A stretch of DNA of 22,933 bases, from positions 1 through 22,933 of IMG/VR virus record IMGVR_UViG_3300032073_000272. One strand, given 5' to 3'. A program made the translations under genes and the position numbers. Below the pieces are notes generated by a model. It was not told where the DNA came from. It worked only from the letters and a program-made list of their open reading frames with translations, and made no database searches. Positions 1 through 22,824 of this stretch are shown here, piece after piece (the stretch's first letter is position 1; the number at the start of each line of letters is the position of its first letter). This DNA comes from a virus.

Positions 1-3000
1 GGCAGTTACATCAGCATTAGCATCAGCATCAGTTGTTCTAGTCCAAGCACCTGCTTTACAAAGATAAATACCATTTTGGCTTGCAGTGCTTTGATTCTTT
101 ACTAATACTCTATCATCAGCAATTACACTTACACTATCAATATCTTGAGTTCCACTTAAAGTAATATTTGTAGTAGTAGTAACCCTTACAGAATCTTTAG
201 TATCTAATCCCTGTTTAACCACCGCCGCACTAGCATCAGCAAGAGCAGTAATTTCAGCATCAGTTCTCATTGTATTAGTGTCTGTATTAACACTAGAAAT
301 ATCTAATGTCTTATTATCCCCACCTGTAACAGTAGCGGTTATTGTTGAGCCGCTAAGAGACAATCCTGATAAGAATTTATTTGTATCTGTATTAACAGCC
401 GAAATATCAACTGTTAAATCTGCTAAACTACCCCTTGCTAATGTTATTGTTCCACTAGCAAAAGTAGCCGCACTAACAAAATCATTACTATCAACAGAAG
501 AACCTGCACCAATAGAGGTTCTAAATGCAGTTGCTTGATTAGTAGTTAAATCATCTGCTCTTGCTAAAAGATTCGCTACGGAAACATTGTCTACTGCGGT
601 AGTCCCTGCTAGAGCGTCTGTTATTCCATAACCTGCAAGGGTTGTCGGTTTACTCGTTAAATTAGAAAACGCTCCACCAAATATATTACCTGCATTAGTC
701 GCTATGTTAGTTGCGTTTGTCGCTATGTTAGTTACATTCGTGGCTACATTAGTAGCATTAGTAGTTATACCGCTTTCCATAGTGTCTAAATTAACTGCTT
801 GTGTTACTGTAATAAAATTCATTTTTGTGCTATCAGCAGATGGGTATGTATTTTTGGCAGTATTAAGACCGACAGCAGTAACGTTAGTTGCTATATCGGT
901 TGCATTCGTAGCCACATTAGTTACGTTAGTTGCTATGTTTGTCGCATTAGTAGTTATACTACTCGACATTGTGTTTAGATTAAGTGCAGAATTAACGGTA
1001 AGGTGTCCTACTTTCGTAGCGTCTGCTGTTGGATATGTATTCTTAGCAGTATTAAGAGCAACTGCGGTTACATTAGTTGCTATGTTAGTTGTATTAGTTG
1101 CTAGATTAGTTACATTAGTGGCTATATTAGTCGCATTAGTTGTTATATCACTTGCCGCACTTCCTAATCCTACATCACTAGCAGTAGCAGCAGTAAGAGT
1201 CGCTGCTTGAATAGTTGCTTGACTAACATTAGTTACATTATCTAAATTTAAAGTTGCAGTAGTTATTTTAGAATTATCAAATATAACATCAGCATTACTA
1301 GCATTTTGTATTACAACCGCAGTTCCACCATCATTAATTTCTAATTTACCTGCCGCATTTATTCCTAATGTTAAGTTATTAGAAAGTGCCTTACCTGCAA
1401 TAGTTCTAGATGTAGGAACTTTTGCTGATAAATCAGTAGCCAAATCAGTAATCTTAGATTGCGCTAAAGTCGGTATTCTAGCAACATCAAATGAACCGCT
1501 TGTAATTTTAGCAGCAGATAAGTCGGGTAATATTGCTTCTGTTACAGCACCCATTAATTCTGTTAAACTTAATTTTTTAACTGCGCCCGAATCACTATTA
1601 TCACGGAAAATTAAACTATCATTTGCTATATCTATACTAGACAATGCAGTTAAACCACTAATAATATCAGTAGTTCCAATGTTAGTATTTGTATCTGTAT
1701 TTATTGCTGAAATATCTAGAGTCTGATTTGTTCCCCCCGATACAGTAGCAGTTATTGTTCCTCCACTCAAAGATAAACCGGAAAGAAATTTATTTGTATC
1801 TGTTGTCATGTCATCAACAACAACATTGATTTTACCACTAGTATCATCGTAAGTAGCACCGACTCTTGTTTCTGTATTACTAGTAAACATAGCACCTACA
1901 ATATCTTGCACTGCTTCTGTTGATATTTGTGAATCAGTAGTAAATCCTAATCCTGTTACGAAAGTATGTATTTGGTCTGCCGTAGCCAAACCCGTACCTC
2001 CATCAGCAATAGCACCCGTTGCTAAAGTAGCAGAAGCACCTAATCCTAGATTAGTTCTAGCGGTAGCGGCATCTTCTAAATCTGATAAATTACTATTTTT
2101 TGTTAATTTAGTGCTTATGCTATTTGTTATTGTCGTAGAAAAATTAGCATCATCACCTAATGCCGCCGCTAATTCATTAAGCGTATCTAATGCCGCCGGA
2201 CTGCCATTCAATAAATTATTCAAACTACCGTCAACATACGCTTTTATTGATTGCTGACTAGCCGCTTTGATTGCACTATTGGAAGCCATGTTATCTTCGT
2301 CTAGTAAATCTAGTTGTGTATTAGTATCAGTAGAAGTAATTGTAATATTGTTTGCATCAGTATGTGTAAGAGTAACATTAGAACCCGCTACAAACTTAAT
2401 ATCTTGAGTTCCTGAACCTGCACCACTTTCTGTTAATCTTAATAATATGTCATCAGAAGAATCCACAAAAGATGTAGCATATTCATTTTGAGTATTATTA
2501 TCAGCAATATAAGCAGGTGTTCCGAAAGTCCCGTCATGTTTTAGAAACTCTCCCGCATTACCTGCTGATGGTATTAGACCTCCGTTTCCTGTGGAAATAG
2601 CGGCAATTGAAGAAGTTACATCGGCAGTTCTTGCCAAAGTTCCTGTCGAAGAAGGAAGAGTAATAGTAGCAGAACCCTTTGTTAATGTTCCATCGGGATT
2701 AATTCTAGTAGTTTCAACACCACCATTTATTGCAGAAAAACTTCTTGATGTTTGTGTATAAGTTAAATATTGTATGTCATGTGTAGCACTATTTGCTTCA
2801 TCCTTATCGTATTTAACCATAGCAATAGGAATATCCCCTGCTGTTAATTCTGCTACCGTAGGAGTACTATTATTTCCTTTTCCTGATGTAGAACCATGTC
2901 TCCAAACTACTGTTTCATCACTGTCTTGTATAACTAACAGACCATACCAATCGGCACTATTTACAGAACCATTAGTATTATTCGTTTGTATGTCAGTAGT

Positions 3001-3231
3001 AGTAGTTATTGTTCCATTAAATTTACCGTTTCTTAAATAGTTACCACTTGTTATAGTAAATTTAGTGAACCCTCCAACTGCTGTTTGTGTAATATTAAAA
3101 CCGCTTAATATTCTATTTTCACCCATAGCAGTATTAAGAGTTTTAATTATACCTGTATGTATTGCATCTGTCCCATCTACTAATTGTGTATCAGCCCCTA
3201 ATCTACTAATAAATCCTGTATTGTTAACCAT
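1..3231 (-). CDS. long tail fibre protein, C-terminus beyond the window
   Basis: The frame is open from the ATG at 3231 to the left edge: 1077 codons with no stop, so the C-terminal receptor-binding end is missing. Residues about 325-400 hold a stretch common in phage tail fibres (SIKAYVDG, then LDTLNELAAALGDD, then RTNLGLG). Residues 696-850 are 63-residue repeats of heptads such as IATNVTN, which I read as a trimeric coiled-coil stalk. A 39-residue module (TDTNKFLSGLSLSG...) occurs twice. From about residue 1009 there is a beta module with DDRVLVKNQ and NGIYLCKAGAWTRTTDAD, also frequent in tail fibres. Composition is rich in Thr, Asn, Ala and Ser, as in homotrimeric fibres. The start ATG overlaps the stop of the preceding 121-residue gene (TAATG), suggesting coupled translation, and GGAGTTGA lies just upstream. 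Its place as last gene of the tail block fits a host-recognition fibre. The function class is confident; the receptor is unknown. Confidence 0.85.
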   Translation of the reverse strand, partial: MVNNTGFISRLGADTQLVDGTDAIHTGIIKTLNTAMGENRILSGFNITQTAVGGFTKFTITSGNYLRNGKFNGTITTTTDIQTNNTNGSVNSADWYGLLVIQDSDETVVWRHGSTSGKGNNSTPTVAELTAGDIPIAMVKYDKDEANSATHDIQYLTYTQTSRSFSAINGGVETTRINPDGTLTKGSATITLPSSTGTLARTADVTSSIAAISTGNGGLIPSAGNAGEFLKHDGTFGTPAYIADNNTQNEYATSFVDSSDDILLRLTESGAGSGTQDIKFVAGSNVTLTHTDANNITITSTDTNTQLDLLDEDNMASNSAIKAASQQSIKAYVDGSLNNLLNGSPAALDTLNELAAALGDDANFSTTITNSISTKLTKNSNLSDLEDAATARTNLGLGASATLATGAIADGGTGLATADQIHTFVTGLGFTTDSQISTEAVQDIVGAMFTSNTETRVGATYDDTSGKINVVVDDMTTDTNKFLSGLSLSGGTITATVSGGTNQTLDISAINTDTNTNIGTTDIISGLTALSSIDIANDSLIFRDNSDSGAVKKLSLTELMGAVTEAILPDLSAAKITSGSFDVARIPTLAQSKITDLATDLSAKVPTSRTIAGKALSNNLTLGINAAGKLEINDGGTAVVIQNASNADVIFDNSKITTATLNLDNVTNVSQATIQAATLTAATASDVGLGSAASDITTNATNIATNVTNLATNTTNIATNVTAVALNTAKNTYPTADATKVGHLTVNSALNLNTMSSSITTNATNIATNVTNVATNATDIATNVTAVGLNTAKNTYPSADSTKMNFITVTQAVNLDTMESGITTNATNVATNVTNIATNATNIATNAGNIFGGAFSNLTSKPTTLAGYGITDALAGTTAVDNVSVANLLARADDLTTNQATAFRTSIGAGSSVDSNDFVSAATFASGTITLARGSLADLTVDISAVNTDTNKFLSGLSLSGSTITATVTGGDNKTLDISSVNTDTNTMRTDAEITALADASAAVVKQGLDTKDSVRVTTTTNITLSGTQDIDSVSVIADDRVLVKNQSTASQNGIYLCKAGAWTRTTDADANADVTA
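274..390 (-). repeat. fibre module duplication, second copy
   Basis: This is the second copy of the 39-residue module, beginning TDTNKFLSGLSLSGSTITAT and ending SSVNTDTN. It is separated from the first copy by the heptad-repeat stalk. It lies just before the C-terminal module with the VLVKNQ and NGIYLC motifs. Confidence 0.8.
682..1146 (-). repeat. 189-base in-frame tandem repeats in the fibre stalk
   Basis: There are two full copies (1146-958 and 957-769) and a third partial copy (768 to about 682). Each full copy encodes 63 residues, exactly nine heptads. A copy opens with ITTNATN, runs through IATN-type heptads and a LNTAKNTYP segment, and closes near LN(T/D)TM. Conserved length and register show coding tandem duplication, not an iteron or CRISPR array. 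Confidence 0.85.
1687..1803 (-). repeat. fibre module duplication, first copy
   Basis: This encodes 39 residues beginning TDTNKFLSGLSLSGGTITAT and ending in SAINTDTN. A second copy of the same length lies at 274-390 in the same frame and gene. The two differ at only a few positions, mainly SGG against SGS and SGGTNQ against TGGDNK, so this is a duplicated beta-rich module within the fibre. Confidence 0.8.
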
Positions 3232-11520: not shown

Positions 11521-12258
11521 TCAATCAAAGAAATTGTCGCCTATCACTTTTGCTTCTTCAAAGTCTAATTGATATCCAATCGTAGGAAACTCACTAGCAA
11601 TAATATTAGTAGTAAAGGAACGCATAAATCCTTCAACACCAATATGATTATTATTTAATGATATATTATCAAAAATGTTAGATTGACTACTCATAGTATT
11701 GCCTGTACCAAATGTGAAGGAATTATCAAATGCTCGATTTTTCCAAGAAAAAGGAATTAAGGGTACTTTGTCTATACTTAGAACTCTCATTTCTGCGGCT
11801 GTAACTGTATTTCCGTCTTTATCCTTTGTTCTTTGGTCGAAAGCATTGTTTACTTTACTAGGATAAAAGAATAATATTTTACTTATATTTTGGTCGTCCT
11901 GTAAAGAACTAGAATCAGCGTAAGAATGTATTAGTTGCATTAGTTCAAATGATGTCATAACAACATCTCTTTCATTATCCGAACCTTGTTCTGATTGTTT
12001 GATAATATTTTGTTCGGTTAATCTGCCCGTTATATTAATTGTCTTACTAGCGAGACCCATATCAAAAGCAAGATTTAGTGATTCTCCCGTTATCGCCCCT
12101 GCTAATGGAACAGGAACGTTAGGTACACTTTTACCTGTTGAAATATTTACAGTTTCAACGTGTAATGGTATTCTATTTTTAATAGCACTACCCGAACCTA
12201 TATCATTTCTTCTAGATAATTCTAACATTACCATATTATTCGGATTTAAAACACTCAA
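11521..12258 (-). CDS. tail protein after the tape measure, possible distal tail/baseplate component
   Basis: 245 residues from a TTG start that overlaps the tape measure stop (TTGA), with GGAGTGAG about seven bases upstream. The next in-frame ATG is eight codons later and has no clear ribosome site, so TTG is preferred. No membrane segment or catalytic motif is visible. Residues about 60-85 contain NLAFDMGLASKTINITGRLT. The C-terminal part has aromatic-rich beta-like segments (VPLIPFSWKNRAFDNSF, VEGFMRSF, YQLDFEEAKVIGDNFFD). In siphovirus tail blocks the gene directly after the tape measure normally encodes the distal tail protein or a baseplate hub partner, so that is the likeliest role. 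I do not recognise the family from sequence alone, and the role rests on position. Confidence 0.55.
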   Translation of the reverse strand: MSVLNPNNMVMLELSRRNDIGSGSAIKNRIPLHVETVNISTGKSVPNVPVPLAGAITGESLNLAFDMGLASKTINITGRLTEQNIIKQSEQGSDNERDVVMTSFELMQLIHSYADSSSLQDDQNISKILFFYPSKVNNAFDQRTKDKDGNTVTAAEMRVLSIDKVPLIPFSWKNRAFDNSFTFGTGNTMSSQSNIFDNISLNNNHIGVEGFMRSFTTNIIASEFPTIGYQLDFEEAKVIGDNFFD

Positions 12259-13769
12259 AAGAAACTCACTCCATTATTTGACCTCATCATTTTAAGTTTA
12301 ATTTCCTTACCTATTTTATTTGCTATGTCTCTTATTTCTGCATCCGATGCACCAACTCGACCACTAACATGAATGTGTATTGTATTGCCTCCCGAACTTC
12401 CCATTCTTTGACTATCTGCATTAGAATGAACTCTAGAACCTCTAGGTAAGGATACTAATTCCGGCCCTTTTTCTCCTACTAACTGCATATTAGAATTTAC
12501 TATTCCTCCTGTTGAAAGCCCCACCATCTTCTTCACAACTGCGGCCACTACACCCGCAATAGCGGCGATTATTAAAACAGGTAAACTGATAAGTGTGCTA
12601 CCTAATAATGCCATTATTCCCACAACTACCGCAACTAATTGCACTACATCTAATACCATTGTAGCAAAGCCCTTCAAACTTAAAAACCCATCTTTTAATC
12701 TTTCCCAAATTAACTTTAATGTCCCTCCTATTACTACGGTTATGGCAGTTCCTATTGCCGTTAAAGCAAGTAATACTACACCACCAAAAACCTGTAATAA
12801 TCCCCATAATAATAAAATTATATCTCCATTTTCTAAAGCATATTTAATATCCGCAATACCATTAGAAATAATTCCCATAGTATATGCTATAATAGTCATA
12901 GCGACTTCAAATATTTCTCCTAACCACTCCATAGTTGTCGCGAATGGTTCTTTGAAACCTTCAAATACATTTTTTAATAATACTAAACCTACTAATATTG
13001 CCGCTAAACCTAACATGAACTTAGCAAAAAACACCAATCCTGTTTTTATAAACTTACCAAAATTAAGCCATGTTTGTATTTTAAATACTTTTTTAATTTG
13101 ACCCACATATTCACTCGCAATTAATTGTTTTTGCAATAATTTAACTCTAATATTATCAAACCTACTACCTGTTGTTCCGATAGAACTACCTGCCGCTTGT
13201 CTTTCTCTTAATTCATCTTGTAGTCGTCTTTTTCTGTTTGTTCTTTTGTCAATTGCTTTTTGTTCTGTTGTTGTTTGTTGATGTAATTCCCTAAAAATTT
13301 CTTTTACTGCCTGTATCATTTCTATTTCATCTTCAATAGTTTGAATACCATCCTTACCAAAAAGAGAAAATTCTGTTCCCTTAAACTCTGAAAGGTTTTC
13401 TTCTAGTAAAAATATTAAATTCGATATATTATCTACATCTTTTAGTGCATCTTTATCAAATATTCCTTTAATTGGTTCTAATCTTTGCGAGGCTTCCATT
13501 GCTTCTGTTGCACCTTTTACCGCAAGTTGAAGTTGTTTCATTGATGGCACAGTTTTTTTTGTTATCTCGTTAGCCACATGAATAATTCCTCTTAATGTAT
13601 TTTGTAACTCCCAAAATGCACCTGTTCCTGAAGTAAATCTACTTAGTATAGTCCAGTATGAACTATATCTTAGTTTCTTTGTTACGTCATAAAGTTTAGT
13701 TGTATCAGAAGTTATTTTTCTTGTTGCATCTGCAAAACTCAACATATCTTTGGTAGCATTATCAACCAT
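12255..13769 (-). CDS. tail tape measure protein
   Basis: 504 residues. The N-terminal half is helical and charged, with Gln/Arg/Glu-rich segments at about 150-195. Strongly hydrophobic stretches lie at about 242-270, 288-305, 317-350 and 367-415. The C-terminus has the hallmark of many tape measure proteins: GGIV...QLVGEKGPELVSLPRGSRV at about 420-447, then Ser/Gly linkers, TIHIHVSGRVGASDAEIRDI and a basic helix. Tape measure proteins span the tail lumen and set tail length; at about 1.5 angstrom per residue this predicts a tail near 75 nm, short for a siphovirus. The hydrophobic helices are the kind that may insert in the host membrane at infection. AAGTGAT precedes the ATG, and the gene follows the chaperone frameshift product by four bases. 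Confidence 0.85.
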   Translation of the reverse strand: MVDNATKDMLSFADATRKITSDTTKLYDVTKKLRYSSYWTILSRFTSGTGAFWELQNTLRGIIHVANEITKKTVPSMKQLQLAVKGATEAMEASQRLEPIKGIFDKDALKDVDNISNLIFLLEENLSEFKGTEFSLFGKDGIQTIEDEIEMIQAVKEIFRELHQQTTTEQKAIDKRTNRKRRLQDELRERQAAGSSIGTTGSRFDNIRVKLLQKQLIASEYVGQIKKVFKIQTWLNFGKFIKTGLVFFAKFMLGLAAILVGLVLLKNVFEGFKEPFATTMEWLGEIFEVAMTIIAYTMGIISNGIADIKYALENGDIILLLWGLLQVFGGVVLLALTAIGTAITVVIGGTLKLIWERLKDGFLSLKGFATMVLDVVQLVAVVVGIMALLGSTLISLPVLIIAAIAGVVAAVVKKMVGLSTGGIVNSNMQLVGEKGPELVSLPRGSRVHSNADSQRMGSSGGNTIHIHVSGRVGASDAEIRDIANKIGKEIKLKMMRSNNGVSFF

Positions 13770-16726: not shown

Positions 16727-17803
16727 TCACGATATAAAATGTATTAGATTCTTTTTACCTGCTATAATTTTATTCGCTTCTTCAAGTAAAATATCATGTT
16801 TAGTTTTCAAATCTATATTAGAACCCGTTTCTGATATTATAATAGAATTATCATCATGTCTTATAATTTCGGCTGCTACTAATTTAGTCGCTGCTTCATG
16901 TATTCCGGCAGGTACTCTTCCATTGCCCGCTACATATGTAACTCTAATGGAATGGTTTTGAACATAAGGAAATTCTCTTCTAAAAAATATTTTTCCTTCA
17001 TCGTTTATAGTCCAATAGTCTCCCATTCTATTTTGGTCTTGATTATCTGTAAATGTCGCCACCGTTCCGAAGTTTGATGTTATAGTGCAAGCCGAACCAT
17101 CTTCACCCATTAACAAAGAAGATATAATTACAGTTTTACTATCTTCTGAATCAGTAGTTGCATAAAAGAAATCTGAAATGTTAACATTAGAATTTCCATT
17201 AGCAGTAACAGATTTAGCAGCAGTTTCACCTGTAAAGTTTGCAGTTTTAGCGGGAAACACTTCATTAATTGTATCTACTAATTGACTAGCAGTAGTTTTA
17301 GCACCAAAGTTATCATAAAAATGTGTTCCTTCTATTATATTAAAAGTATAACTTCCTACTGTTAATGAGATAGTCCAAGTACTATTTGTTACAGATGTCG
17401 GTAAAGTAATTTTTGCAGTAGCAGATGCCAAATCTTTGTATTCATTTCCCTGCCATACTTCTAATCTAACTATTTTCCTAATTTTTGGTTGAGATAGTTG
17501 TACAAAACCAACATAGTCTTTCCATATAGATACAGGATAAGCCCCTTGATTCCATCCATCAAAAGAAAAATATTCATCCTTATGTATTATAGGTCTAAAC
17601 GATTGACCTATACCACCATCTATTTTTTCTTCCACTCTCTTTATAATTTTTCCAATTTCTGCTCTTGTAGGTGTTGTCGTATCAGAAAATGCTCCAATTT
17701 GTAATAGGTTAGAAACATCTGTATGTGTAGTATAATGACCGTTACCTATTGTATAGTTTACGTTGATATTTGTAAAATCACTTGGAGAGGAAACCTTTGC
17801 CAT
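16727..17803 (-). CDS. head-tail connector/adaptor-like protein with inserted beta domain
   Basis: 358 residues. The ends look like a gp6/gp15-type head-tail adaptor. The N-terminal helices include VSNLLQIGAFSDTTTPTRAEIGKIIKRVEEKIDGGIGQSFRP, here split over about residues 30-72. The C-terminal part has IRVTYVAGNGRVPAGIHEAA and LVAAEIIRHDD and closes with a helix (HDILLEEANKII). Between them, at about 125-250, is a separate domain with YTFNIIEGTHFYDNF, ASQLVDTINEVF and VIISSLLMGEDGSACTI. This pattern is shared by small beta domains in many phage structural proteins. The start ATG follows the TAG of the upstream gene with no gap. The position just before the tail genes agrees with a ring protein docking the tail to the portal. 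Confidence 0.65.
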   Translation of the reverse strand: MAKVSSPSDFTNINVNYTIGNGHYTTHTDVSNLLQIGAFSDTTTPTRAEIGKIIKRVEEKIDGGIGQSFRPIIHKDEYFSFDGWNQGAYPVSIWKDYVGFVQLSQPKIRKIVRLEVWQGNEYKDLASATAKITLPTSVTNSTWTISLTVGSYTFNIIEGTHFYDNFGAKTTASQLVDTINEVFPAKTANFTGETAAKSVTANGNSNVNISDFFYATTDSEDSKTVIISSLLMGEDGSACTITSNFGTVATFTDNQDQNRMGDYWTINDEGKIFFRREFPYVQNHSIRVTYVAGNGRVPAGIHEAATKLVAAEIIRHDDNSIIISETGSNIDLKTKHDILLEEANKIIAGKKNLIHFIS

Positions 17804-20800
17804 CTAATTCAATCCCATTAATTGCTTATATTTATACTGTGCGGCTAAAATCCTAGCGTTATCATTCATAGAAGTTTCTTTAGAACCCACTTTACTCGGT
17901 ATAGATGACCCCAATCTTGTTGATGCAGAAAATCCCCTTATTGGTTCATCAGTCTTACTTCCCGACATTGCCGATGATGGATTTAGTGATTTTAGTGATT
18001 CACTAGTTTTAGAATCAAAGGATACAAATGGAATATATTTTAGTTGACCCAAACCCGCCAACATTCCTCTAGGCAAAGTTGTCATTAATTTGCTATCTTT
18101 ATTTTTTATTTCTAATTTAGGAATTTTCCTTTTATTCGGTAGTATTTCTTCTACAAACAATTGCTGTAATGTTTTAGTTATGTTAAACATATTATAACTA
18201 TTTTGACCTGCTCTATTTTCTCTTAATAAACTTCCTAAGTTTAACAAATTCTTGAATGATTTAAAATCTAATTTATCCACTCTTTTTGTTTTAGTACCTT
18301 TTTCATCTGTTTGTTCTTTTAACGTTATTAAAAAGTTACCGAAAAGACTTACTAACTGTTCTCTATCAGTTTTACTTAGCCAAAAGAATAAACTGTTAAT
18401 TTCATCAACCTCTTCTATTTCTTCGATAGTAAGTGAAAACATTTTTGTTATTTTGTTTAGTTGTTTTTTTCTTAATATTTCAGACTTACTAACATTACCC
18501 TTTTGGTCTTCATATGTTTGTGTTATTTCTTCAATTATATTATTCAATGTTATTATATCAACATTATCGTATGCAAAATTCCCTCTTAATATGCTTTTGT
18601 AATAACCTTGATAGCCGTCCTCAAACCATGTTGGAAATATATCAGTTTCCACTGTTTCTTCTTGGTCTACCCATTCTCTTTTTTCTCTTTCTTCTTTCTG
18701 TAAAGAGCCATAAGAAAGAAGTATTTTTTTATTGTCTTCACTTGTAAACCACTTATACGCTTCTGATTCTTTGAACTTATCAAAAATTTCCTTTGCACTT
18801 TCTGTAACTTCTTCTGTAACTTCTTCTGTAAGCATTCCATCCATTTCATCTGAATCAAATCCCACGCGTAGATTTGACAAACCTACGAGATATTTTCCAT
18901 ATAATCTAAATAAATTATCAACATCTTCTTGTTTTCCGCTATTTGTTAATTTCTTAATATTTTGAGATGTAATGGTTTTACCATCTTTTGTTTCAATTTT
19001 TAGACGATTCATTAAATCATTTATTTTTTTAAAGTCATTATACGTTGCATCTATCGCCCACCTAATTCTAGTTTCAGGATTTCCTGAATTTTCGCCCTTT
19101 CCCGATGTGTTAAAAATAGAAGTTGTTAGATAAAAGGCAGCATCATCCCAATTACCTTTGTTAGTAACCTTTTCTAATTTTCTAGGAGAACCTTTAGTAA
19201 AATTATAACTATCTTTTTGTAAAAGCGTGTGCAATTTTTGTTGGAAAGGCATAATATCATCTACAATTAAATTATGTATTCTATCTACATCTTTATGAAA
19301 TGTGTCGGGGGTGTTGTATAATAATCTAGAATCCGAAGATGTACCTTTAGGTCTTGTTCCTGTATCTTCATCAGCGAGTTGTGTTCCATATTTTTTATTA
19401 TAGTTTAAAAATTCATTAAAATTCTCTTTACTTTGTAACGCTTCTTTAGCCTTGCCGTCTGCAAATTTTAACTTAAACGTATATTTACCCATCATTACTT
19501 CGCCTTTTTGTGGTGTTAATACTGCTTTAATAGCAGCACCAATATCATACATTGCAGTACTACTTATTCTTGTATCACTAGCAATTATTTTTTCAATTAA
19601 TTTAGTGGCTCTTGCCTCATCGGTAATTTCGTTATAAAATTGTTTAACAGTATCGTAAGCCTGTTGTTCAGATAGTCCCATGTAATTGCCTCCTGTTTCG
19701 GGCTTCAAAGAAGAAAACACATTATACATTTCAACTACGGGCGTTTCTATTGGATTGCGATTATCCTTTTGGTCTAAAAATGGATTATTAGGGTCTTTTG
19801 ATTGACCTTTAAAATGTCTTTCTAACATTGTGCGTGTAGTTTTTTCATCACTAAATATTCTTTCTAACACTAAAATTCCATTAGTAAAACTAGGCTCGAA
19901 GAAGTCTTTAAACCCACTAAAATCTGTATCCTTTGGTGTAAATTTTTTATTGGAAAAGTTTTTATTTTTGTTTTTCCAATTAGGTTCTCTCTTTAAAAAA
20001 GTTATAGTTTTCAAAACACTTTTTAGAAGTTGTTTTTCTATATCCTCTTCTTCATCTTGGTCGGTATCTTTAGTTTTTTCTTTATATACATTGTCTATAA
20101 TATCTAATATTTCTTTAAGGACAGAAATGGCAAATTTCTGTTCGTTTCCTTCACTATCTTTTGGTTCGGATATTCGCTCTACAAACGCACTACCGCCTTC
20201 TGATAAATCGCTAAGCAACATTAAAATCCATTTTGTCTTAGCATCTGATGTTTCAAAAATTTCTTTAGCCTTTGCAAACTTCTTTTTCTCATTTTCTTCA
20301 CCATCTAATAGTGTCGTTAGATATTTAGTTTTTTCATTACTCTGACTTGTAGTATTTATCCATTTCTCGTATAGGTCTATTTTCGTTTTTAAATCTTCAT
20401 CATCCCTAGTTGATAAATTATATTTAGATTTCTCATCTAATATATTTTTATCTAGTCCGGCTTTATCAAACACTTTTTGAAAATACTTATTAGTGTCTAT
20501 AATAATATTAAGTGAAGATTTGGTTTCTTTACCACTCTCTGATTTTGATGTTTCTAATTTAACAGTAATTATTCCTTTTTCTTTTAATATTTCAGGTATA
20601 TAAATAACCTTAGATTTATCAAATGAATCTATAACACTGTAATTACTTTCATCATCAACTTCTTCTAAAAGTGCAAGTTTATCTTCAAGACCCTGTTCTA
20701 TTGCTTCTTCAAATTCTGCATCAAAATTCATTCGTTTCTCTTTAGAGAGTCCATTCCTATGTTCCTTTAAGTTTTTAATTTTTTTATTCTTTAAATAATT

Positions 20801-21400
20801 AGTTTTTATTTTTTCTCTCATATCTTCTATTTCTTTATTAGTAATTTTAGGTTTATCATAAGTTTCTTCTAATAATTGGTTTCGTCTTTTTTCATTGAGA
20901 AAATGTTTAGTTAGAAAGTTTATTTTTTTAGCCCTATTTAATAAATTAACGCTAAAAATATATTTATCATCAGTTCTAGTTAATTTTTTCTTTTTTTGTT
21001 CTTTAGAGGTATCATATATTGTTACATAACCTTTATCTGCTAATTTTTCTATCAACGAGTGTAATTTTACCTTTCCTATTTTTTCCATTATTAATTTTAT
21101 CAATTTCTTTAATTCTTTTGATTTGAGTCTTCTTACATTAGCATCTTTATCTTTAAAATCATCCTCATCTGCTTCCCTAATATCCCTAACAGAAAGGTTT
21201 GCCTTTTTCATTTTTTCATTGGGATTTTCTACTGACTTAAAAAAGATAGAAGCAGCAAATTTTTCAAAAAATTGTTCTATTCTTTTATTAGAGTGAGAAA
21301 ATTCTTTATCATTAAATAATTCAATATTTTCTTCGGTTAATAAGAACTCGGTTAGTTGGTATCTATCTATACTACTATTAATCCATACACCCTTTTTCAT
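17804..21400 (-). CDS. very large charged protein of unknown function (1198 residues)
   Basis: I do not recognise this protein. It is Lys/Glu/Asp-rich and predominantly helical, with probable coiled-coil stretches, for example near residues 85-115 (RRLKSKELKKLIKLIMEKIG) and 180-250. Residues about 95-155 (KLHSLIEKLADKGYVTIYD, then a lysine run and DDKYIFSV) recall a winged-helix layout, but this is weak. A 12-base repeat near residue 860 encodes TEEVTEEVTE. The last 120 residues differ: Gly/Ser-rich with basic patches (RGFSASTRLGSSIPSK), ending in a helix (ARILAAQYKYKQLMGLN). No membrane segment, signal peptide or enzyme motif is visible. AAGGTGG lies eight bases before the ATG. It lies between two small proteins and the connector gene, so a virion, internal (ejected) or assembly role is likely. 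That is inference from position only. Confidence 0.7.
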   Translation of the reverse strand: MKKGVWINSSIDRYQLTEFLLTEENIELFNDKEFSHSNKRIEQFFEKFAASIFFKSVENPNEKMKKANLSVRDIREADEDDFKDKDANVRRLKSKELKKLIKLIMEKIGKVKLHSLIEKLADKGYVTIYDTSKEQKKKKLTRTDDKYIFSVNLLNRAKKINFLTKHFLNEKRRNQLLEETYDKPKITNKEIEDMREKIKTNYLKNKKIKNLKEHRNGLSKEKRMNFDAEFEEAIEQGLEDKLALLEEVDDESNYSVIDSFDKSKVIYIPEILKEKGIITVKLETSKSESGKETKSSLNIIIDTNKYFQKVFDKAGLDKNILDEKSKYNLSTRDDEDLKTKIDLYEKWINTTSQSNEKTKYLTTLLDGEENEKKKFAKAKEIFETSDAKTKWILMLLSDLSEGGSAFVERISEPKDSEGNEQKFAISVLKEILDIIDNVYKEKTKDTDQDEEEDIEKQLLKSVLKTITFLKREPNWKNKNKNFSNKKFTPKDTDFSGFKDFFEPSFTNGILVLERIFSDEKTTRTMLERHFKGQSKDPNNPFLDQKDNRNPIETPVVEMYNVFSSLKPETGGNYMGLSEQQAYDTVKQFYNEITDEARATKLIEKIIASDTRISSTAMYDIGAAIKAVLTPQKGEVMMGKYTFKLKFADGKAKEALQSKENFNEFLNYNKKYGTQLADEDTGTRPKGTSSDSRLLYNTPDTFHKDVDRIHNLIVDDIMPFQQKLHTLLQKDSYNFTKGSPRKLEKVTNKGNWDDAAFYLTTSIFNTSGKGENSGNPETRIRWAIDATYNDFKKINDLMNRLKIETKDGKTITSQNIKKLTNSGKQEDVDNLFRLYGKYLVGLSNLRVGFDSDEMDGMLTEEVTEEVTESAKEIFDKFKESEAYKWFTSEDNKKILLSYGSLQKEEREKREWVDQEETVETDIFPTWFEDGYQGYYKSILRGNFAYDNVDIITLNNIIEEITQTYEDQKGNVSKSEILRKKQLNKITKMFSLTIEEIEEVDEINSLFFWLSKTDREQLVSLFGNFLITLKEQTDEKGTKTKRVDKLDFKSFKNLLNLGSLLRENRAGQNSYNMFNITKTLQQLFVEEILPNKRKIPKLEIKNKDSKLMTTLPRGMLAGLGQLKYIPFVSFDSKTSESLKSLNPSSAMSGSKTDEPIRGFSASTRLGSSIPSKVGSKETSMNDNARILAAQYKYKQLMGLN
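18801..18832 (-). repeat. 12-base tandem repeat inside the large unknown gene
   Basis: The unit tctgtaacttct (plus strand) occurs twice, followed by a partial third copy. It is in frame and encodes EEVT repeats. It is probably a slippage expansion in an acidic linker. Confidence 0.7.
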
Positions 21401-21413
21401 TCATTATACCACC

Positions 21414-22127
21414 TTAAGCAAGCCATTTAGCCCATGCAACTGCTTTACCCAATCCTTGTGCTAGACCTAGACCACTTTGAGGTGGAGTATATGTTGGTTG
21501 ACCTGTTTGTGGGTCAATCCAATAAGGATTATTCATGTTGTCATAACCACTAGGAGGAATAGGATAACCGCTACCGTTGTTCATAGCCATTTGTTGTTGG
21601 TTTAGAGTATTGTTAAAATTAGTACTCATGTTTCCTCCTTGTATTTGACTTGGATTTAACCCTTGATGATTCATACCCATTTGAGGATTCATACCCATGT
21701 TGGTAGAAGGAGCAGGTGCAGATGGAGAACTAAACCCTTGTGCTTCGAGATACTGTTGTTTAGCCATTCTTCTTTGCATAACAACTTCACTATTAATTGC
21801 AGTAGCCAATAAATTCTGTATATCTAAATCAATATTTTCTTGAGTTATAGCAGTAAAATCACTAAGAGCATCGGGTGTTATAGATAAATTGCCACTAGAA
21901 CTTTGACTAAACTCTAACTTTACTAACATTTGACTAACACTTCTTGTAACAGTGTCTTCAATAAGTTTTTCTAAAGCCCCTAAGAATGCCTCTCCGTGAT
22001 ATTGAAAAAAATCTTCTACATGGTTTTCCTGTAAAGTTAGAAGATTGTTCATTGCTTTGAATTGGGTTTGTTGTTGTGCGCCAATTTGGGTTGCTAACGC
22101 ACCATTACTAGTTCCGAATAATCCCAT
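21414..22127 (-). CDS. Gln/Asn/Met/Pro-rich structural-type protein, unknown
   Basis: 237 residues. The first half is helical (ATQIGAQQQTQFKAMNNLLTL, FLGALEKLIEDTVTRSVSQML) and continues to about residue 130. From about 130 the sequence is low-complexity, rich in Met, Asn, Gln, Pro and Gly, with a short repeat (MGMNPQMGMNHQ) and YW/PP segments. A hydrophobic helix closes it (GLAQGLGKAVAWAKWLA). There is no signal peptide. GGGGGGGAGTGA immediately precedes the ATG and contains the stop of the upstream gene, so translation is probably coupled. Its position before the 1198-residue gene suggests a virion or assembly component; a disordered surface or packing role fits the composition. No family is recognised. 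Confidence 0.65.
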   Translation of the reverse strand: MGLFGTSNGALATQIGAQQQTQFKAMNNLLTLQENHVEDFFQYHGEAFLGALEKLIEDTVTRSVSQMLVKLEFSQSSSGNLSITPDALSDFTAITQENIDLDIQNLLATAINSEVVMQRRMAKQQYLEAQGFSSPSAPAPSTNMGMNPQMGMNHQGLNPSQIQGGNMSTNFNNTLNQQQMAMNNGSGYPIPPSGYDNMNNPYWIDPQTGQPTYTPPQSGLGLAQGLGKAVAWAKWLA

Positions 22128-22130
22128 TAA

Positions 22131-22808
22131 TCACTCCCCCCCTGTTTCAACATTGACAACGTTAACGCCTTCGGTTAATAGAGTTTTGACTCTTTCATTA
22201 ATATTGTTAGTTTCTATAATTAATCTAAATAATTCTTCTTCTTTATTTTCAGCACCGTTGTTTGGAGGTCGGATAGTCCAACCCATAGCAGAAAGAGATT
22301 GCATATCGGCTTGTTTTAATGTTGTCATTGGACTTGATGTTACTAAATTAACAGGGTTCAAACTTTTAGCAGATGGGATGTATGCACTAAAAGAAAGTCC
22401 GTGTTCTTCTGCTAGTATTTGTTGTTCTAACATTTCATATTGTCTATGAATTGCTGCGTGTTTTTCACAATATGTTCCTCTCATTGGATAACCTTTTCTT
22501 ACTTTATGTAAAGGTAAAGGTGGTCTTCTAGCATCACCTGCTTCCCAAACTTTTTGTGAACCGCAAACCACACATCTATCCTTTAAATTATATTTGAATC
22601 GGTATGGTATTTTCAAAAATTTCTTTTTTTCGGGCTTTAATACTTTGATTATTTCTTTCAATTGTTTTTTAGGTTTTAGGTTTTTATACTCATAATGTAT
22701 AATTGAACCTGCTGCTCTCGCGGCAGAAAATCTATCTAAAAATGGGTTAGTTCCCACATGGGCTGATTGTGCGCCAATAAGATTTGTTGGGTTGTAGTTC
22801 ATTGTCAT
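22131..22808 (-). CDS. protein with Cys/His metal-binding cluster, unknown role
   Basis: 225 residues from the ATG at 22808. That start is chosen because AAGGGTGA lies eight bases upstream and matches the ribosome sites of the neighbouring genes; an in-frame GTG at 22820 would add four residues. Residues about 40-78 are strongly basic (KKQLKEIIKVLKPEKKKFLK). They are followed by CVVCG (C79, C82), a Pro/Arg/Gly-rich loop (DARRPPLPLHKVRKGYPMRG) and YCEKHAAIH (C114, H117, H121). This spacing suits one zinc ion held by CxxC and CxxH. The C-terminal half is mixed and helical, ending with ETGGE. The basic stretch beside a zinc-type knuckle suggests nucleic-acid or protein binding. As a neighbour of structural genes it could be a minor capsid or assembly protein. 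No exact family is recognised. Confidence 0.65.
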   Translation of the reverse strand: MTMNYNPTNLIGAQSAHVGTNPFLDRFSAARAAGSIIHYEYKNLKPKKQLKEIIKVLKPEKKKFLKIPYRFKYNLKDRCVVCGSQKVWEAGDARRPPLPLHKVRKGYPMRGTYCEKHAAIHRQYEMLEQQILAEEHGLSFSAYIPSAKSLNPVNLVTSSPMTTLKQADMQSLSAMGWTIRPPNNGAENKEEELFRLIIETNNINERVKTLLTEGVNVVNVETGGE

Positions 22809-22816
22809 GTGGTAAT

Positions 22817-22824
22817 TCACCCTT
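22817..22824 (-). promoter_or_regulatory. ribosome binding site AAGGGTGA that decides a start
   Basis: On the minus strand AAGGGTGA lies eight bases before the ATG at 22808 and overlaps the alternative GTG codon at 22820. Its GGTGA core recurs before other genes here, which favours the ATG. Confidence 0.55.

Follow-up and report, generated by a model that had tools for sequence, protein, structure and literature searches.

Gene content of the locus

The window is the whole stretch of viral DNA that was analysed, 22,933 nucleotides in length. The ORF under study, P0001, lies at positions 17804-21400 on the minus strand, starts with ATG and encodes 1198 aa. The gene is present unchanged in two other viral contigs, one of which is 66 kb long. 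P0001 is a real coding gene, as its frame stays open in relatives at the same locus and its dN/dS is well below 1 (see below, Evolutionary rate). P0001, its parts, and the adjoining genes are listed below, with the basis of each assignment in parentheses.

17804..21400, minus strand: P0001, B-family protein, 1198 aa (ORF and same-locus relatives)
20426..21400, minus strand: P0001 residues 1-325, N-terminal domain, family-conserved part (AF2 pLDDT; profile match)
19691..20425, minus strand: P0001 residues 326-570, lineage-specific, mostly helical insertion (low alignment occupancy, low pLDDT)
19766..19825, minus strand: P0001 residues 526-545, HFKGQSKDPNNPFLDQK motif common to protein A of the same genome (sequence comparison)
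19421..19690, minus strand: P0001 residues 571-660, second core with the ..LTPQKGEVMMGKYTFKLKF.. strand (pLDDT; partly conserved columns)
18071..19420, minus strand: P0001 residues 661-1110, lineage-specific helical region (family alignment, AF2 model)
17807..18070, minus strand: P0001 residues 1111-1198, comprising a strand (1122-1139), a Gly/Ser-rich disordered stretch, and a helix (1174-1195)
16727..17803, minus strand: head-tail connector, 358 aa, beginning directly after the B stop codon (weak phrog_442 match)
21414..22127, minus strand: p237, conserved protein upstream of B (same-place relatives)
22131..22820, minus strand: Zn229, conserved Cys/His-containing protein of the same cassette as p237 (same-place relatives)

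The order of genes in the 66-kb contig is a 930-aa protein, TerL, a 448-aa protein, portal, a series of small genes together with the 736-aa protein A, DNA ligase, S78 protease, MCP, 153, 91, two small membrane proteins predicted from their sequences (141 and 74 aa), a 222-aa GTPase, Zn229, p237, P0001 (B), connector, 71, 175, tail tube, 123, a tape-measure-like protein, and further tail genes. The S78 protease has its own acidic, scaffold-like C-terminal region. Homologues of the connector were found at the same place in all related loci and in a sister lineage. As originally predicted, P0001 immediately precedes a connector gene. The capsid gene, however, is separated from P0001 by a few kb on the upstream side and lies beyond the window. 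Its predicted rank as the second longest gene held among the complete ORFs of the window, where it follows a 2270-aa ORF, but not when an ORF cut by the left window end, which is longer, was counted. In the 66-kb contig, the gene to which the cut ORF (window positions 1-3231) belongs encodes ~2,796 aa.

Magroviruses are viruses of Poseidoniales archaea (PMC10160649; PMC12999244) that are known from metagenomes only (PMC12999244), and their gene set includes PolB, an ATP-dependent ligase, and an ERCC4 nuclease (PMC10160649). All three were found here, together with a halovirus-related MCP, S78 protease, TerL, portal, and tail tube. The MCP matched SU10_MCP and the haloarchaeal viruses HCTV-1 and HVTV-1. 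Given these MCP matches and the PolB, ligase, and ERCC4 nuclease genes, the virus to which the window belongs fits, by gene content, the magrovirus-like tailed viruses that infect marine archaea. PolB is encoded in two parts, by ORFs of 566 and 308 aa that are separated by a 114-aa ORF (L006, 4093-7060), and these lengths are repeated in two related genomes.

Sequence and predicted structure of P0001

P0001 had been described as charged and mainly helical, with a Gly/Ser-rich basic end, and these properties were confirmed. K, R, D, and E make up 34% of its residues, the predicted model is mainly helical, residues 1135-1180 contain 37% G+S, and the net charge from residue 1080 on is +9. No Cys is present. 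Residues 1145-1175 are largely predicted to be disordered and are followed by the final helix, the Y..L-type end of which is kept across the B family. The lack of a recognisable domain was also upheld, with no match for P0001 in Pfam, PHROGs, NCBIfam, or PDB. Profile searches and structure prediction, both suggested earlier as checks, were run on P0001 and gave no confident match to a known family.

The P0001 model had a mean pLDDT of 62.5. It was poor in the long insertions and good for most of residues 1-325, much of 571-660, and the C-terminal strand and helix. In the AF2 block 1-325, the pLDDT was 76-93 over most of the length and dropped at 131-150, 181-190, and 241-260; in the block 571-660 it was 67-90. 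The model suggests a layout consisting of a confident N-terminal domain, a small second core, a conserved C-terminal strand and helix, and long lineage-specific helical insertions. For a compact homologue (L071, 457 aa), an alpha/beta fold was predicted (mean pLDDT 82, pTM 0.56). When the L071 homologue and P0001 were searched with Foldseek, no PDB match below 1e-3 was obtained. The best hits of the L071 homologue, volvatoxin A2 and Cyt toxins, were rejected (E 0.07 or worse, TM-scores 0.11-0.25, not significant), and a BFVD match, A0A516LI73 (E 4.9e-4, TM ≤0.2), was nameless and uninformative. Walker A motifs in B were scattered and showed no conservation. The assignments of P0001 as a portal, terminase, or prohead protease were discarded, as there was no model match and the 66-kb contig has a separate gene for each of them; the connector, likewise, is a separate adjoining gene.

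The B family

Related loci were gathered by MCP searches, and the analysed set comprised 62 loci whose borders could be read and whose B sequences all differed from one another. Presence and length in related contigs, proposed earlier as a further check, were determined: the gap between p237 and the connector held exactly one ORF, of 352-1326 aa, in 62/62 loci. After these, 21 additional distinct B sequences were found. Single-linkage BLAST (E<1e-5) joined 54 of the 62 ORFs, and the remaining ones formed a second cluster of six and two singles, one of which was matched by the second cluster at 97.5% in profile comparison. Residues 43-317 of P0001 matched two other clades at 91-95% by the same method, and P0001 is both the single p237-connector ORF of its locus and linked by sequence to other members. 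Homology within B is well supported for most members and, for a few, is suggested by position. No B paralogues were found in the searched loci.

No convincing domain was detected with Pfam and PHROGs in any of 52 B members, and NCBIfam gave no match for P0001 or the compact homologue. The B family profile had a single match among PDB sequences (E 0.23, not significant). No counterparts of B, the GTPase, or the connector were found in annotated phages. Judged from sequence comparisons, B is a protein family that had not been listed before and that occupies a single fixed position in the head-and-tail genes of a large group of archaeal viruses from the ocean. P0001, the long version of B, is a genuine orphan: the family is new, and the kind of position it occupies is familiar. 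P0001 had been put forward as the best candidate for an undescribed function. The family is indeed undescribed, and neither sequence nor Foldseek searches matched it to a portal, terminase, or internal virion protein; the reading of its function (see below, Possible roles of B) is borne out in part.

Evolutionary rate

This virus (G001) was compared with two close relatives. Between G001 and G003, the capsid proteins were 100% and the connectors 93% identical, and the identity was 56% by BLAST (59% aligned) for B and 50% by BLAST for A. Between G001 and G004, the capsid protein was 99% identical and the GTPase, Zn229, and p237 97-98%, and neither B nor A had a BLAST match at 1e-4. This larger difference of B and A in G004 is compatible with allele replacement as well as with change.

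In codon counts for the G001-G003 pair, dN was 0.304 for both B and A and 0.003-0.075 for MCP, GTPase, ligase, protease, Zn229, p237, connector, and p175. The divergence of B and A is not a matter of older DNA, since their dS values (0.68 and 0.65) were similar to those of the ligase (0.66), GTPase (0.63), and p237 (0.55). The dN/dS of B was ~0.4 overall and 0.25-0.70 in windows along the gene, the rate being high across the whole protein. B is fast-evolving but constrained, and positive selection is without proof because no G001-G003 window had dN/dS >1. In other close pairs, B and A were usually among the fastest of the compared genes, with exceptions that include p175 and, in one pair, MCP.

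Two further proteins also varied strongly between genomes with near-identical capsid proteins. Identity was 30-35% for the tape-measure-like protein (window 12255-13769, 504 aa) and 32-68% for the 930-aa protein that precedes TerL (L008, 12212-15004).

Protein A and the N-terminal tag

Protein A is large and charged. Charged residues amount to 34-36% in A and B, and the Cys content is 0.010% in A and 0.037% in B versus 0.77% in other ORFs, p237 and p175 being low too. The N-terminus of A is MSFMDILK, a variant of the tag MSWxDILK. About a dozen proteins per genome start with MSWxDILK or MSWFDVIK, and they are encoded in the portal-ligase interval of the 66-kb contig (L008, 1250-7476, minus strand) and its equivalents in related loci. 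The pattern M-x-[WF]-x-[DEN]-[IVL]-[LIV]-[KRH] was found near the N-terminus in 141 ORFs versus 1 elsewhere, and in none of the shuffled proteins. When pieces of three genomes were read in six frames, 35/35 listed tag occurrences (one ORF being counted twice, in two overlapping pieces) were ≤19 codons from the preceding stop. A similar sequence, M[ST]WDD[VIL]H, is present at the C-terminus of the protease in most genomes, including the sister lineage, where 1/1224 ORFs had the N-terminal tag. Because it resembles the end of the protease-scaffold, the N-terminal tag is possibly a capsid-targeting tag. P0001, which starts with MKKGVWINSSIDRYQ, does not carry it. The tag offers a testable prediction of which proteins sit in the particle, and this system beside P0001 may be more consequential than P0001 itself.

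A and B of this virus both carry the 20-residue motif HF[KE]GQSK[DN]PNNPFLDQK. The B copy is in a segment absent from the B of the closest relative, and, judged by eye, the A and B copies differ in DNA mostly by synonymous changes. A search of the viral collection located the motif in this virus only, and its copying may have been accidental. Besides it, profile comparison showed no homology between A and B. Their lengths were correlated (rho 0.87; independent contrasts, r = 0.30, sign-flip p = 0.03), and this co-variation was set aside as evidence, being mostly clade structure.

The GTPase cassette and the sister lineage

The 222-aa Arf/SRPRB-like GTPase (L003, 7910-8578) is encoded just outside the window, beside the two small predicted membrane proteins, Zn229, and p237. 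Its G motifs are intact (GASKAGKTT, DVGG, NKHD, SAK), and the GTPase, Zn229, and p237 are strongly conserved in the virus lineage. The GTPase profile had no match to solved structures at 0.001. The cellular relatives were just two contigs of one Maricaulis MAG, which are probably misbinned virus since they have the same MCP-GTPase-Zn229-p237 order.

B and the cassette (the membrane proteins, GTPase, Zn229, and p237) co-occurred in every locus read. The sister lineage retains homologous MCP, protease, connector, and p175, and had no match to B, GTPase, Zn229, or p237. The capsid-connector interval of HCTV-1 contains no GTPase, no large ORF, and no B. As both are missing in the sister lineage and HCTV-1, B may belong functionally to the cassette, on the basis of this one lineage contrast.

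Two other observations concern these loci. Where this virus lineage has the 871-aa ligase, the sister lineage encodes a protein of 1848-2395 aa (L347, 2696-8539, and equivalents in L274-L353) with a match to the ligase profile; no Pfam domain was found in the one tested. In L206 (1-11650), the head genes as far as the start of B match L015 at 92%, and from inside Zn229 on the sequence matches L072 at 98%, including an identical 433-aa B, so L206 is either a recombination product or a chimeric assembly.

Possible roles of B

Our first choice, held tentatively and as somewhat short of an even chance, is that B is a fast-evolving, virion-associated protein co-delivered with the genome. We infer that P0001 would be loaded at head assembly and delivered along with the genome, to act in the host alongside A, which is tagged. 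Its conserved N- and C-terminal parts would anchor the protein, and the long, variable, helical middle would face the host. This is consistent with the one B ORF at a fixed place in the 62 loci, the dN equal to that of tagged A, the shared composition of A and B (nearly Cys-free, highly charged) and their common motif, and, by analogy, with the tag of A following the logic of the T4 capsid-targeting sequence. However, B is without the N-terminal tag of A and about a dozen others, its motif is unique to this virus and perhaps accidental, A and B are non-homologous, and neither their lengths nor selection adds to the case. Travelling together with the cassette may also indicate a non-virion role.

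That role, our second choice and a rather doubtful one, would be as the variable part of a GTPase-controlled membrane complex made late in infection, e.g. for egress or for assembly at the membrane, in which B would adapt to host factors. The joint presence and absence of B and the cassette and the conserved GTPase with its kept G motifs point in this direction, but the co-occurrence comes from a single lineage contrast, the physical link is putative, and the rate of B is unlike that of the cassette genes.

We consider it improbable that B is an external decoration or fibre of the head or neck, anchored by its conserved ends and varying in the middle through contact with the host or surroundings. 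Its conserved ends, variable middle, and adjoining connector gene would suit such a protein, but B is mostly helical and highly charged, is without the beta-rich repeats usual in fibres, and matched no decoration or fibre family. Fast evolution in step with A would favour an internal position over an external one, and the missing tag would argue against it. Very unlikely is a head or neck assembly factor absent from the finished particle: its place between the head and connector genes is fixed, but such fast change would be unexpected with near-invariant partners (MCP, connector), and the sister lineage assembles without B. The scaffold-like factor mentioned in the original prediction is unlikely for P0001 because the S78 protease carries its own acidic C-terminal region and the B-less sister lineage has homologous head genes.

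With its fixed locus and a rate of evolution as high as that of the tagged, possibly packaged A, the family is a concrete candidate for cargo that these viruses bring into archaeal cells. A broader scheme, which we regard as unlikely, is an addressed packaging system of magroviruses in which the M[ST]W-[DE]-D-[IV] tag carries about a dozen proteins into the head, with P0001 as a second, untagged and fast-diversifying delivered protein that comes with the viral Arf/SRbeta-like GTPase cassette.

Comparison with known systems

HCTV-1 and HVTV-1 have a homologous MCP and a comparable head-to-tail gene order, but HCTV-1 differs in having neither B nor a GTPase gene between capsid and connector. The polyvalent proteins of phages and conjugative elements (PMC5512222) are very long and multidomain. 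P0001 resembles them in its great length and possible delivery with DNA, but B, with no convincing domain in 52 members, is not multidomain in that sense. The head ejection proteins of the giant phages SPN3US and phiKZ are poorly conserved head-module proteins, several per virus (PMC5694885). B is likewise poorly conserved and in a head module, but no sequence relation to P0001 was seen, and no propeptide or protease site was identified in P0001.

The internal proteins of T4 are diverse counter-defence proteins (PMC3012670) in which the capsid-targeting tag alone is conserved (PMC3012670; PMC5694885). P0001 differs from them in being tagless and far longer than the IPs, with no sequence or fold match, and its packaging is putative. 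Like B, however, T4 IPI, IPII, IPIII, and Alt are fast-evolving, charged, and linked to head genes, and the T4 capsid-targeting sequence can be likened to the short N-terminal tag on A and about a dozen proteins, which resembles the end of the protease-scaffold.
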